From a virus, in IMG/VR virus record IMGVR_UViG_3300025309_000420, positions 1 to 33,755 of that record: a stretch of DNA of 33,755 nt. One strand, 5' to 3'. The position numbers and the translations under genes are program-made. This document shows positions 5,075 to 10,221 of this stretch, piece by piece. The notes below the pieces were generated by a model, which was not told the origin of the DNA, searched no databases, and was given only the letters and a program-made list of their open reading frames with translations. Every line of letters begins with the position of its first letter. Within the stretch, counting starts at the first letter, position 1.

Positions 5075-8000
5075 TTATGCGAATGATAACTCGCCATTCC
5101 TCTGCATCTCTTTAAACATAGGGTCAAGGGTTCGTGCAAGATTTCTTGCCTGTGTCCTTGTGAGCTTCAGGACATTGCCATCTTTGTCAACCACTACCTC
5201 AAAATTCATTTGTTGATGATAGGTAATATTATTTTCCGTTTTGCCTGAATTTGGCAGAGAGCCGTATCTGTTAGCATAATTAAGCCCTGCCTCCCCACCG
5301 ATTGCCCTGATTCCGTTATATTTATTGAGGATGCCTTCGCCGACTTGAGCAATAATAGGGACTTCATCATCCTTGAGATACATTCCTGAGTGTGCTTTTT
5401 TTAATAGACCGCCTTCATGCCAAAGTCCAAAGCCATGAAAAACATCACCGATACCTGGAAGACCAGATCCACCTCCTCCTAATCCAACAGCACTTTTTAA
5501 TCCTTCCCATGCATCAGTAAATATATTTTTCAACCCTTCCCATGCATCAGTAAATATATTTTTCAACCCTTCCCATAGATTACCAATCGCTCCTAAAAGG
5601 CTGTCTAATAACGCTTTTAATCCTTCCCATGCGCCGCCGAGAATGTTCTTAAATCCTTCCCATAGATTACCAATCGCTCCTAAAAGACTGTCTAACAACT
5701 GTTTCAGTCCTTCCCATGCACCACCGAGAATATTCTTGAACCCTTCCCATAGATTACCAATCGCTCCTAAAAGGCTGTCTAATAACGCTTTTAATCCTTC
5801 CCATGCGCCGCCGAGAATGTTCTTAAATCCTTCCCATAGATTACCAATCGCTCCTAAAAGACTGTCTAACAACTGTTTCAGTCCTTCCCATGCACCACCG
5901 AGAATATTCTTGAACCCTTCCCAGAGATTACCAATCGCTCCTAAAAGACTGTCTAACAACTGTTTCAGTCCTTCCCATGCACCACCGAGAATATTCTTGA
6001 ACCCTTCCCACAAACTCCCTAATATATTTTTCAGCCCTTCCCATGCACCTGAAAAAATACTTTTCAGACTCTCCCACAGATTACCGAACAAATCTCCAAG
6101 ATATCCAAATATGCCCTTAAGTGTTTTTCTCTCCGCTTCTTTTTTTACATTATTTGCATCCTGTTTCTGTTTCTCTGCCAGTATTGCCGCCTGTCTTGCG
6201 GATAGCAAAGCCTCTCTTGCCACTGCCCTGTCGGTTTCATTCACCGCACCTAAAAGTGCATCCTGTGCGTATTTCAATGCCTGCATTGCCCCTGATGTAT
6301 CAAGTTCTACTGTTACAGGTTTTGCCTGATCATTCCATGTATCAGTTATTGCTGATGTGATTTCCCCACCCACAAATAATGCTTTGATACCTTCCCAGAT
6401 ACCATTCACAATCTCATATATAAGTTCAGGGACTTTTGAAACAATTGTAATTATTGCATCTATGATTGATTTTATGATTGAGGGAAGAACTTTTCCTATC
6501 TGTGAAAAGAATTTTGGAATACCCTCTATGAGGGCATCTATAATATCTCCGACACTGCTTAAGAGCGAGGTTATAATTTCATATAAAATTGAGGGAAGAT
6601 TTACTATTATATCTTTTATGATTGTAACTATAGCCTTACCAAAACCTCTTGCACCATCTACAAGCCCTTTCAGCCCTGCCTTTAACATATCGGGTAACTT
6701 TCCGATATTTGAAATAAGCTCAATAATACCCCCAATTAATTTTCCAGCTTCTCCAAAAAGCCCGGCAATCCCCGATAAGCTGCCTGACGATATTGCAGAT
6801 AGGGCAGTTGTGTAATCTTGCATCCCTTCATACCATGCCTTTTGTTTTTCTGCGGAATCTTTAAATTGTCCGTCCCTCTGCTCCGATAGTTTTATGATTT
6901 CTCCTGTTACCCATTTTTCCACTTCAACCCTTTCTATTCCCATCTCTTCCCATACCTGTCCTTGCTCTACGAGTTTATTAATTTGTTCCTGATAATACTG
7001 ATCTGTTACAACTCCCGCCTCTTGATAGAATTGAGCATTTAAGGTAAGCAGTTTTTTTGCCTCCTCTGCGAGCTTCTCGTCATATTCCCTCGCTGCTTTT
7101 TTTGCCTTTGTAAGCTGGTTCCATGCGGCATGGCTTTTTTTAATTGCCTCTACATCATTATAAATAACTGCAGGCTTGCTTATTTCTGTTTGAAGTTCTT
7201 TTACTGAAGATACAGGGGAAATTTTTGAAACATCCACCCCGGCTATTTTATCGGCAAGTTTATCAACCCCGCCTGCTGTCCCTGCAACTGTTGCGGTGAC
7301 GGCAGACCATATATCGGTTAAATGTTTTTTTGTATCAGGTGCGGTATCAACAAGCCCCTCTATTGTCTCCACATATCCGAGTAATGATTGTTTGCCTTCA
7401 TCTATAATTATTCTTTGCTCATTCCATATTCTTTCAGAATCTTTTACTTGCTCATCAAGGATCCCCCAAAAATTGACAGTTTTCAAAAATCCTGTTATCG
7501 CTCCCCTGACCAAATTTAAAACCTTCCAGAGAGGGAGATATATTGCAGCTATGTATAAAGAGGCTAATCCGTATATAATTATTTTCCATCCATGGAAGGC
7601 ATCGCCGATTAATTTAACTGCGCCGTAAACCCCTTTTAATATTGTTATTCCGTTATCTCTCAGCCAGTTAAAACTGTCTATAATCCCTTGAGTCAAGACA
7701 TCGAGATATGCGCCTGCTATTGCTGCCCATTTCTGCCACCTTTCTCCTGACATGAATTTTTCCAGTTCATCGGATGCAGCTGCTATTTTTTCCGATAGCT
7801 GATTTGCCCATGGTCCCAGAATTTGTTTGAGCATGTCCCCAAGTGTCTGTTGAACGTTTGAAATGGAATTTTGAAGCGAGAGGAGTCCGCCATATCCTGT
7901 ATTCCTCAATGCCTCCGCCTGCCCTCCATAAGCCTTAGATATTCCATTTATCAGGTTCAATAATCTTTCATTTGAGCCGATTGCTCCTTTTACCTCAATC

Positions 8001-8503
8001 CCGTATCTTGAGAGTGCGTTTGTATCTGTGCCGAGGGTCTTTGCAACGAGGTCGGCGGCTGATGCTAAATCCATTCCCTTTGCTGATGCAAGGTCAAGGG
8101 TTGCCTTTGTGGCAGATTTGATTTGCCTCTCATCTTTCACAAAAGCGGCGATAAGGGATTCCGCCCCTATGATTGCATCACCCGCAAAAACGGTGCTTGA
8201 TGATAAGGATTTAGCGTAGGCGATAAGGTCTTTAGACGTATATCCTAAAGCTGTCCTTAACTGCGTTAATGCTTTTTCTCCCTTGTTTGATTCTTCAATG
8301 AATGATTTAATGCCAAAGCCAATACCGGCAATGCCTGCAAGCCCTATAAATGCAGATTTGAGGCTGAATATGGATTTTGATAACCATGTAGAAGCACTGT
8401 GGACGGCTTGAAATGACCTCTCTGCTGTCCGCTGAAAGGTCTGGACAATATGGCTTGCCCCATCTTTCGCCTTTAGTGTGAGTGTTATCGTTTTCTCTGC
8501 CAT
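5075..8503 (-). CDS. Tape measure protein with tandem Trp-repeat region
   Basis: This 1142-aa protein is the longest in the window. The N-terminal 250 residues carry the typical phage minor-tail/tape-measure signature (SAFIGLAGIAGIGFGIKSFIEES, LRTALGYTSKDLIAYAKSL, DLASAADLVAKTLG). Hydrophobic stretches near residues 290-340 and 590-740 would insert in the host membrane during DNA entry. Residues about 815-1000 are a tandem repeat: five 29-aa units (core NLWEGFKNILGGAWEGLK, then (Q/A)LLDSLLGAIG) flanked by shorter 11-aa WEGLKNI units. A Gly-rich linker and a C-terminal part with VPIIAQVGEGILN follow. It sets tail length; at the usual 0.15 nm per residue a tail of roughly 170 nm would be expected. 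It is preceded by the frameshifted chaperone pair, as in lambda G/T/H. Confidence 0.92.
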   Translation of the reverse strand: MAEKTITLTLKAKDGASHIVQTFQRTAERSFQAVHSASTWLSKSIFSLKSAFIGLAGIAGIGFGIKSFIEESNKGEKALTQLRTALGYTSKDLIAYAKSLSSSTVFAGDAIIGAESLIAAFVKDERQIKSATKATLDLASAKGMDLASAADLVAKTLGTDTNALSRYGIEVKGAIGSNERLLNLINGISKAYGGQAEALRNTGYGGLLSLQNSISNVQQTLGDMLKQILGPWANQLSEKIAAASDELEKFMSGERWQKWAAIAGAYLDVLTQGIIDSFNWLRDNGITILKGVYGAVKLIGDAFHGWKIIIYGLASLYIAAIYLPLWKVLNLVRGAITGFLKTVNFWGILDEQVKDSERIWNEQRIIIDEGKQSLLGYVETIEGLVDTAPDTKKHLTDIWSAVTATVAGTAGGVDKLADKIAGVDVSKISPVSSVKELQTEISKPAVIYNDVEAIKKSHAAWNQLTKAKKAAREYDEKLAEEAKKLLTLNAQFYQEAGVVTDQYYQEQINKLVEQGQVWEEMGIERVEVEKWVTGEIIKLSEQRDGQFKDSAEKQKAWYEGMQDYTTALSAISSGSLSGIAGLFGEAGKLIGGIIELISNIGKLPDMLKAGLKGLVDGARGFGKAIVTIIKDIIVNLPSILYEIITSLLSSVGDIIDALIEGIPKFFSQIGKVLPSIIKSIIDAIITIVSKVPELIYEIVNGIWEGIKALFVGGEITSAITDTWNDQAKPVTVELDTSGAMQALKYAQDALLGAVNETDRAVAREALLSARQAAILAEKQKQDANNVKKEAERKTLKGIFGYLGDLFGNLWESLKSIFSGAWEGLKNILGSLWEGFKNILGGAWEGLKQLLDSLLGAIGNLWEGFKNILGGAWEGLKQLLDSLLGAIGNLWEGFKNILGGAWEGLKALLDSLLGAIGNLWEGFKNILGGAWEGLKQLLDSLLGAIGNLWEGFKNILGGAWEGLKALLDSLLGAIGNLWEGLKNIFTDAWEGLKNIFTDAWEGLKSAVGLGGGGSGLPGIGDVFHGFGLWHEGGLLKKAHSGMYLKDDEVPIIAQVGEGILNKYNGIRAIGGEAGLNYANRYGSLPNSGKTENNITYHQQMNFEVVVDKDGNVLKLTRTQARNLARTLDPMFKEMQRNGELSFA
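5505..6060. repeat. Tandem 87-bp / 33-bp repeats in the tape measure gene
   Basis: Five 87-bp units encode the 29-aa repeat, flanked by 33-bp units encoding WEGLKNI-type hendecads. The 87-bp units are of two DNA types (one with Ala, one with Gln before LLDSLLG). An Ala+Gln pair of 174 bp is repeated almost exactly: the block starting at 5598 recurs at 5772, apart from a CATAG/CAGAG difference near the end. This indicates a recent duplication of the pair. Confidence 0.9.
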
Positions 8504-8506
8504 GAT

Positions 8507-9258
8507 TTATTTCTTCCTTTGTTTTTCTTTTTTTTCACAATAGACATTATGAATCAAAAGGAGCTTCTCAAATACCTCTCTGCAATTTCTGACTTCGTAA
8601 AGATTAAAAACAAATTCAATGCTCGGATACCAGAGGGGACCATAATCGCCAAAGCCTATATTTTGCTGACTACAAACAATCTGATATAACTGCCATGCCT
8701 CTTGATTTTCATAAAGCAAATCTATGTTAGGGACCCTGCATTGTTTACACCTATCCTCCGTAATCGGTAATCCATAAGCCTCTTTTTCATCCTCACATCT
8801 TTCACAGGTGATATTGAGTGGGTCAAGGTAATATCTTGCCCACTCAATTAGTTTTTTCTTTCAGTCTCCTGCTTGATAGCCGCAAGGTCTGTAGATGCCT
8901 GCTGGATGAAGACATCAAACCCATAAGCTTCTTTCAGCAATGCGAGTTTATTCTTATCGGAACATGGAACATCAGCATTCTCCTGTCCTGCTGGAATATC
9001 AATCGGAATGAGTTTTGACGCAGCTGAAAGAGTTAATCCTTTCCAATCCAGAATGCATTGTGCAAGCTCCAGATGTAGTTTATCAACATCTATGTCATCC
9101 TGCGGCTGATGCCTGACATACTTTGTTTTTTTACACCTGTCAAGTTTTGCCTGCAGGTCGGATTTGCTCAGGTAATTGATATGGACATCAAATTTCCCCT
9201 CAAAATTAACCCATCCCGATACATGTGCATCTTTCTTTCTTAATTCTGTTAAATCCAT
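8507..9258 (-). CDS. Frameshifted tail assembly chaperone (gpGT-like fusion, 250 aa)
   Basis: The longer of two proteins from one start. The 136-codon upstream frame (9258-8851) ends AGA AAA AAC then TAA. On the slippery A_AAA_AAC (8857-8851) a -1 slip re-reads base 8851 and continues as CTA ATT GAG without a stop for 114 more residues to the stop at 8507. The extension carries two CxxC pairs (CERC and CKQC), probably a zinc ribbon, and then a helical tail rich in Lys. A 14-bp hairpin begins immediately downstream of the slip site. In lambda and most siphophages such a G/GT pair sits just before the tape measure gene and loads tail tube subunits on it; the position here is identical. A downstream TTG at 8719 could be mistaken for an independent start. 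Confidence 0.88.
8813..8857 (-). promoter_or_regulatory. -1 programmed frameshift site: slippery AAAAAAC plus stimulatory hairpin
   Basis: The slippery heptamer A_AAA_AAC lies at 8857-8851 in the correct phase, followed by the zero-frame stop TAA. Downstream, ATTGAGTGGG (8848-8839) pairs perfectly with CCCACTCAAT (8822-8813), extended by CAAG/CTTG (8838-8835 with 8827-8824) around a 7-nt loop, with one bulged base at 8823. The GC core starts about 5 nt after the heptamer if the outer A-U pairs are melted, which is the usual spacer. Confidence 0.88.
8848..9258 (-). CDS. Tail assembly chaperone, short form (gpG-like, 136 aa)
   Basis: A 136-aa protein starting MDLTELRKKDAHVSGWVNF with a fair ribosome binding site (AAAGGAGGCGT) before the ATG, 12 bases after the tail tube gene. 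It contains a mixed alpha/beta N-terminus and a helical second half (LALLKEAYGFDVFIQQASTDLAAIKQ), similar in size to lambda gpG. It terminates at TAA immediately after the slippery heptamer. It is expected to be made in excess of the frameshifted form; both bind the tape measure and are absent from the mature virion. Confidence 0.85.
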   Translation of the reverse strand: MDLTELRKKDAHVSGWVNFEGKFDVHINYLSKSDLQAKLDRCKKTKYVRHQPQDDIDVDKLHLELAQCILDWKGLTLSAASKLIPIDIPAGQENADVPCSDKNKLALLKEAYGFDVFIQQASTDLAAIKQETERKN

Positions 9259-9270
9259 ACGCCTCCTTTA

Positions 9271-10221
9271 TTAATCAAATTCCAATACAATCTCGTCATC
9301 CCCTGCGTTTCTGGCAAAGAGAACTGAAAGGTCTGCAACTGCAACACCGTTTCTATCACCATCCGATACCGCTGTGATTTGCATCTTCGGAGCGGTGAAT
9401 TTAAAACGGTTATACTGGACACTGCCGATTTTCCCGATTACCAGGGAAATAAAGGCTGCACTTTTGTATTTGCCAAAATAATCGTAAGTGGCGATTGTTA
9501 CCATCTCAGGATTGATTGAGCCTGTAGGGTTTCTTCCTATGATGACTCCGACTGCATATCCCTCTGCCTTTGTAATATCCTCCATTATAGAAACTGCGGC
9601 GGCGAGATTGATTTCAAAACTTTGAGCCCTTGCAGTATAGGCATCAAAAGTTAGTGGAGTGTTAAGCAGGGTAGGCGGAATGGTTGATTCATAGGTCGGT
9701 GTAAGCATAGCGCCGTCAATGGTTCCATCCAAAACACCGCTAAATTCAAAGGCTGCCTTTATTACCCCGCCTGATTCACCGTTGAATTTAACCGTTCCCC
9801 TGCATCCCTTTAATTTCTTAATTACCCCGTCCTCATAACAAGCCATAGTCAGAGATGGAATCCCTGTGCTTGCAGGCTGATATGTCGCCTTTTCAACTCC
9901 CACAGTTGTAACTATTGTCTCAGCAAATCCACAAGCCCGCAAATATTGACTTAAAGCTGGTTTTACGCTTGAGGAATATGCCGCCCCTGCACCTTTAATT
10001 TCTGCCGTAAAACTTAATTTTGCAGATTGCTTACCAGATACGTTACCAAAAGACGATAATGAGGCGCTTGCGGGCTTTCTCTCAAGTGATTCAATATCAA
10101 CTGACACCGTAGGGTCAATTACCAAGATTCCCCCATCCGCTGCCGATAAGGTTTCTGCTATTCCTTCAACTGCCTCTATTTTTGCCGCTGCTACCCTTCT
10201 GCTCTTTAATTGACTGGCCAT
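9271..10221 (-). CDS. Major tail tube protein
   Basis: A 316-aa late protein immediately upstream of the tail chaperone pair. The N-terminus (LKSRRVAAAKIEAVEGIAETLSAADG) and the repeated small/beta-rich pattern (VSVDIESLERKPASASLSSFGNVSGKQSAKLSFTAEIKG) are typical of siphophage tail tube subunits. Two roughly similar halves (SLTMACYEDGVIKKLKG and VIIGRNPTGSINPEMV regions) suggest a two-domain tube protein. The start has a strong ribosome binding site (AAAGGAGGTAAAAGAAG). The tube is built on the tape measure by the chaperones encoded next. The terminal strand NAGDDEIVLEFD is also typical. The family name is inferred from position and composition. Confidence 0.78.
   Translation of the reverse strand: MASQLKSRRVAAAKIEAVEGIAETLSAADGGILVIDPTVSVDIESLERKPASASLSSFGNVSGKQSAKLSFTAEIKGAGAAYSSSVKPALSQYLRACGFAETIVTTVGVEKATYQPASTGIPSLTMACYEDGVIKKLKGCRGTVKFNGESGGVIKAAFEFSGVLDGTIDGAMLTPTYESTIPPTLLNTPLTFDAYTARAQSFEINLAAAVSIMEDITKAEGYAVGVIIGRNPTGSINPEMVTIATYDYFGKYKSAAFISLVIGKIGSVQYNRFKFTAPKMQITAVSDGDRNGVAVADLSVLFARNAGDDEIVLEFD

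Follow-up and report, generated by a model that had tools for sequence, protein, structure and literature searches.

Known frameshift systems and the locus under study

Phage lambda, the E. coli gene dnaX and several other phages offer the closest described counterparts of the gene addressed here, a tail assembly chaperone gene in the virus record IMGVR_UViG_3300025309_000420. The whole stretch of 33,755 nucleotides (nt) is called the window, and the features described in it lie on its minus strand. The slippery heptamer of the lambda G/GT pair is G_GGA_AAG, and the window differs from lambda in having another heptamer, an adjacent stop, a strong hairpin, a Shine-Dalgarno (SD)-like element and CxxC motifs in T. 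The likeness is one of arrangement. In lambda, a -1 shift occurs near the end of G, T lies in the -1 frame, and the pair sits between the tail tube and tape measure genes; the roles of G and T are described in passages of PMC5009743. The profile matches of the window chaperone are phrog_313 and phrog_680.

The dnaX cassette has an SD-like sequence, an A_AAA_AAN heptamer and a hairpin (passages of PMC3711429 and PMC5009743), the order also seen in the window, where the SD-like element is a candidate. The 3' stem-loop of the dnaX type is present in the window, but the second codon is AAC and not the AAG of dnaX, so that the site is not A_AAA_AAG; moreover, the window shift would give the longer product, and a zero-frame stop follows the site. 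Acinetobacter phage Loki gp12/gp13 resembles the window, and an identical motif occurs in phage IME_AB3; however, that case is a prediction only, and the text seen of PMC5313236 mentions neither hairpin nor SD element. The phiCbK-like phages are a further group for which AAAAAAC is given (PMC3556154, in part). The T5-type chaperones (Demerecviridae, phrog_313) share a homologous G, probably a homologous T domain, and a predicted fusion near the same place at the end of G, but most of them open the +1 frame, with UUU_CGN, and the T domains inspected lack CxxC.

An earlier note on this DNA, made from the letters alone, had proposed a lambda-like -1 frameshift in a chaperone gene before the tape measure gene. 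Synteny, recurrence in related loci and the hairpin now support this proposal well, and we consider it very probable that this tail assembly chaperone gene of a siphophage contains a cassette for programmed -1 ribosomal frameshifting, giving a G-T fusion. The elements of this cassette are as follows.

8848 to 9258, minus strand: zero-frame G-like tail assembly chaperone, 136 amino acids (aa) (translation; phrog_313, labelled tail assembly chaperone in PHROGs, E 3e-9; hhalign)
8507 to 8851, minus strand: T domain in the -1 frame, 114 codons from the slip onward and then a stop, two CxxC motifs (translation; phrog_680, E 2.5e-5)
8866 to 8870, minus strand: SD-like AGGAG, preceding the heptamer by 8 nt, putative 5' stimulator (sequence; anti-SD hybridisation)
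8851 to 8857, minus strand: in-phase slippery heptamer A_AAA_AAC, with the final two sense codons of G (sequence; recurrence in related loci)
8848 to 8850, minus strand: zero-frame stop TAA, directly 3' of the heptamer (sequence)
8813 to 8848, minus strand: putative stimulatory hairpin, 14 base pairs (bp), one bulge, 7-nt loop (folding; synonymous recodings)

The slippery site and the -1 frame

The 3' end of G (9258-8848, 136 codons) reads GAA AGA AAA AAC TAA, which bears out both the in-phase heptamer (8857-8851) and the stop behind it, as first described. The -1 frame was likewise correctly described as open at the slip: it has a TGA at 8863-8861 and is open from 8860, 3 nt upstream of the heptamer. 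After the slip, T begins LIEWAR and runs for 114 codons (8851-8510) to a stop at 8509-8507, with the two CxxC motifs CERC and CKQC. No start codon serves the whole T domain, as the first listed one (TTG 8719) lies beyond both motifs. The predicted fusion is a 250-aa G-T protein with the junction peptide ...ETERKNLIEWAR..., in which ETERKN is joined to LIEWAR. Since AAAAAAC occurs 19 times on the two strands of the window, the heptamer alone means little, and what carries the case is its phase and position, the open frame, the hairpin and the conservation.

We infer the slippage itself, its rate and the roles of both products as follows. The majority of ribosomes would read AAA AAC TAA and stop, yielding the 136-aa G. 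A minority would be stalled by the hairpin, and perhaps also by pairing of AGGAG with 16S ribosomal RNA; these would slip back one base on A_AAA_AAC and continue with CTA ATT GAG into the 250-aa G-T. By analogy with lambda G/GT, G may coat the tape measure protein while T may recruit the tail tube protein.

Recurrence in related loci

Relatives were collected by a tail-tube alignment search of viral contigs, which gave 97, of which 80 were kept (five of these have less than 450 nt downstream). A site was counted when A_AAA_AAC stood in phase, with the upstream frame open for at least 70 codons and the -1 frame open. Such a site recurs in 50 of the 80 loci. In 49 of them the zero-frame stop follows without a codon in between; in the remaining one (L038) it comes 31 codons later. 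These 49 loci, among them the window phage's own copy (L009), represent 38 distinct contexts in 8 clusters by T. With the G peptide held fixed, the joint codon-usage chance of the three heptamer codons is about 0.11 in the window and ranges from 0.013 to 0.13 among the 38 contexts. The alignments cover 34/38 contexts (A4, without L043, L054, L060 and L062), 32/38 (A5) and 23/38 (A3 and A6).

The cysteines of T had been singled out as an unusual, zinc-ribbon-like feature, and this view did not survive. When 23 T sequences of tail-tube-related loci are aligned, the positions C16, C19 and C35 of the window T never vary, even if for most of these sequences kinship with it has no profile support. 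Six distant cultured phages were also taken via tblastn with a relative's G or T. Five of them have an in-phase AAAAAAC and an open -1 frame (Alteromonas P24, Microcystis Mae-JY22, Agrobacterium JP1, Rhodobacter RcZahn and Rhizobium RHph_TM16), with the stop next to it in P24 and TM16 only, while RHph_I4 has GGGAAAC instead. The -1 frames of the examined cultured phages bear CxxC motifs, and cysteine-bearing T domains are therefore common in such genes.

The other tail-tube-related loci have different candidate -1 sites or none. TTTTTTG stands two sense codons before the stop in nine loci (L013, L015, L017, L018, L020-L022, L024, L035), and TTTTTTC well ahead of the stop in four (L028-L031).

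The hairpin and the SD-like element

The hairpin was found as the earlier note had drawn it, within a few bases of the site: its arms (8848-8835 with 8827-8813) form 10 perfect pairs, then a bulged A, then 4 more pairs. It folds at -20.2 kcal/mol (z score -7.0), a stability reached by 0 of 200 dinucleotide shuffles, and among 500 recodings synonymous for the T peptide only a fraction of 0.004 fold as well. The stop had been placed inside the spacer, which holds for two of its bases (U8850 and A8849); the third base already forms the first pair of the hairpin, and the spacer is thus 2 nt.

In the relatives, an ungapped alignment of 32/38 contexts shows a stem of 10 bp that begins 7 nt behind the heptamer. 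The six contexts left out are L043, L054, L060 and L062, plus L009 (the window phage copy) and L041, whose hairpins are placed differently; the window and L041 hairpins have a geometry of their own. Across the 32 contexts, 99.1% of 320 cells are paired, against 23-45% when the partner is slid by 1-3 columns. Changes on both sides of the stem occur in 24 cells against 7.6 expected by shuffling. These changes fall on 4 stem pairs, a level also reached by 31/500 shuffles. Downstream folding is stronger than in synonymous recodings in 8/8 T clusters (cluster mean fractions 0.004-0.016; 37/38 contexts, L043 left out). The hairpin is under RNA-level selection.

Upstream, the AGGAG, which the earlier note had missed, hybridises at -7.4 kcal/mol in the window. 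In 38/38 contexts, pairing between the anti-SD and the 8-mer that spans -15 to -8 reaches -4 kcal/mol or better. A distance of 9-14 nt is given for SD sequences that stimulate -1 shifts (passages of PMC5009743), and the element lies near it. We regard it as a likely candidate for a 5' stimulator. By eye it is weak or absent in several distant cultured phages.

One chaperone family with probably two shift directions

The G protein of the window belongs to the T5-type family. Against 25 T5-type G sequences, hhalign gives 98.8% (E 4.8e-17); a separate comparison gave a best identity of 34% (E 7e-6), and the window G is clearly homologous to them. The window T is probably homologous to T5-type T as well, with moderate support (hhalign 78.8%, E 1.7e-5; a score of 14.2 bits, where the best of 200 shuffles reached 4.4), and has an hmmsearch match that covers residues 39-114, outside the CxxC part. 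These hhalign E-values are for single comparisons, and the T profile was built from 25 of 75 T sequences after near copies were removed.

Scanning viral sequences with T5-type G turned up 77 loci (L107-L183) in 53 distinct contexts. Of these, 36 have a +1 frame that continues open past the stop, and every one of the 36 carries UUU_CGN in frame close to the G terminus, a motif that resembles the influenza PA-X site. UUU_CGN is absent in 16 of the 17 contexts that open -1 and present in one. Inspection of 14 of these 17 gave in-phase GGGAAAC in 10, and AAATTTT, AAATTTC, AAAAAAA and AAAAAAC in one each. The window G ends in ERKN and opens -1, without the UUU_CGN of the T5 type. The T domains of the +1 and -1 groups resemble one family (14/17 -1 contexts, 15/36 +1 contexts and L089-L091), and all eight separately inspected phage records (L089, L090, L091, L102-L106) open +1 at an in-frame UUU_CGN.

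In 13 representatives of the +1 group, the codon-usage chance is about 0.001 for UUU at Phe and about 5e-5 for CGN at Arg, a crude estimate that assumes independent lineages. The first ATG of the +1 frame lies at least 23 codons past the site in 12 of the 13 (4 codons past in L172), and a separate ATG start for T is unlikely, because the frame is open and similar in sequence before that ATG. UUU_CGN is likely a +1 frameshift signal of T5 relatives, as judged from these sequences, and may have been overlooked, since one paper reports no predicted frameshift signal for the T5 chaperone. Our literature search, including the accessible portions of PMC6256483 and PMC8718954, found no paper that names a +1 site in T5-type chaperones; for another tail chaperone, that of HSTV-2, a +1 shift is called very likely in PMC5009743 (partial text).

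Taken together, we think it probable that members of one family (phrog_313) arrive at the same G-T fusion, at nearly the same position, by opposite shifts: an overlooked +1 shift at UUU_CGN in T5 relatives, a -1 shift at G_GGA_AAC and similar sites in others, and a -1 shift at A_AAA_AAC with an adjacent stop in the window. Selection would keep the fusion and its dose, and the direction would be free to switch. The tree has at least 2 changes of direction, with 1 compatible given the starred branches, and places the window and the Proteus row on long branches. When an alignment was used to look for further direct homologues of the window chaperone, nothing came up apart from the window's copy and two records resembling Proteus phages.

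The -1 mechanism is already known, and this probable change of direction within the T5-type family is the more interesting result. For the model phage T5, it amounts to the testable claim that in its relatives a +1 shift at UUU_CGN fuses the two "tape measure chaperones". A family that switched direction but kept the fusion would let the ratio and the junction needed for tail assembly be probed. The window itself adds a well-supported A_AAA_AAC case from a phage of an uncultured setting. Its stop is adjacent to the site, its hairpin has counterparts with compensatory changes in relatives, and an SD-like element may contribute on the 5' side.

In one of the inspected records, Vibrio phage Ceto (NC_042094.1; L105, 355-927 and 881-1198), the base plate tail tube gene that precedes the chaperone appears in the annotation as a short open reading frame with a "naphthoate synthase" on the opposite strand beside it, which is likely a misannotation.

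Weighing the proposed frameshift and its alternatives

Several points count against a programmed -1 shift in the window, or narrow what can be claimed for it. Among the direct chaperone homologues -1 is the minority, with 17/53 contexts against 36/53 for +1. The conservation across the 49 tail-tube-related loci is, as far as the sequences go, one of arrangement and not of one gene. Most of these loci carry a chaperone family different from the window's, and profile comparison of the main group with the window failed (hhalign probability 0.6% for G and 0.5% for T); no single gene family is therefore claimed for all 49, and the chaperone module seems to have been swapped among phages with a common tail tube. 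The SD signal is modest against synonymous recodings (-8.56 observed against a mean of -6.25 kcal/mol; cluster fractions 0.02-0.47), because the conserved acidic peptide favours GAG and GAA codons. Finally, the heptamer and the 2-nt spacer are suboptimal by published E. coli data, in which A_AAA_AAC is far less shift-prone than A_AAA_AAG and spacers are usually 5-9 nt (passages of PMC5009743).

The word "textbook", used in the earlier note, is accordingly too strong for this heptamer, spacer and adjacent stop, while the core of the proposal stands. In sites derived from human immunodeficiency virus, a stop directly after the site lowered -1 shifting, with release factors competing (PMC4373837, in part). 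For this reason, the adjacent stop in the window may be a brake that sets a low share of G-T, or it may merely reflect a compact gene overlap. It had also been argued that homologues lacking both the heptamer and an open -1 frame would speak against the site. Such homologues are many, the 36 T5-type contexts being an example, yet they do not refute the window site, because a different signal would yield the same fusion.

It is very unlikely that no shift occurs and that T is instead a gene of its own, whose translation starts by re-initiation or coupling close to the G stop. The SD-like sequence near the end of G would suit this arrangement, as such sequences can serve coupled genes (passages of PMC5009743), and some ATG, GTG or TTG falls within the first 20 T codons in 30/38 contexts. 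However, the positions of these codons vary, 8/38 contexts have none, and neither does the window T, whose first lies at 8719; the phase of the heptamer would also be left unexplained.

We give equally little credence to RNA polymerase slippage on the A run, by which a share of messenger RNAs would change frame. The run before the C counts 6 (17 contexts) or 7 (21 contexts), but runs of 6-7 are short for this mechanism, which offers no account of the conserved C, the phase, or a hairpin with compensatory changes. That one gene was split by sequencing or assembly error, homopolymer runs being error-prone, is next to impossible, since the window, the IMG/VR contig and a contig of a Nitrospinota metagenome-assembled genome (MAG) agree at the site, and 48 other loci are split alike at the same place.

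Genomic setting

The -1 frameshift cassette thus remains by far the best account of the locus, whose overlapping G and T frames sit between the following neighbours.

9271 to 10221, minus strand: tail tube protein, upstream neighbour (Pfam Phage_tube_2, E 1.9e-9)
5075 to 8503, minus strand: tape measure protein, 1142 aa, downstream neighbour (phrog_58, E 3.1e-47)

A Pfam scan of G and T gave nothing above cut-offs, with weak matches only for T (DUF1799, E 0.1; FAM76, E 0.026), and the predicted structures of G and T are poor (mean predicted local distance difference test 43.3 and 53.1). The PHROGs label of phrog_680 is tail length tape measure protein, and since its match here is the chaperone T domain (8510-8851), this label may come from the neighbouring gene.

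The IMG/VR contig is identical to the window across the frameshift region, and the Nitrospinota MAG contig is 99.9% identical over 9.5 kb and identical at the site. Binning with this MAG, and nothing else, suggests a Nitrospinota bacterium as the host; a search of 77 genomes from its phylum matched the MAG itself alone. The tape measure gene contains 87-nt (29-aa) tandem repeats (window 5494-6010, minus strand, against L008 9212-9554). In the Nitrospinota MAG copy, alignment offsets suggest two fewer repeats than the window has; either the tail would be shorter, or the difference stems from assembly.
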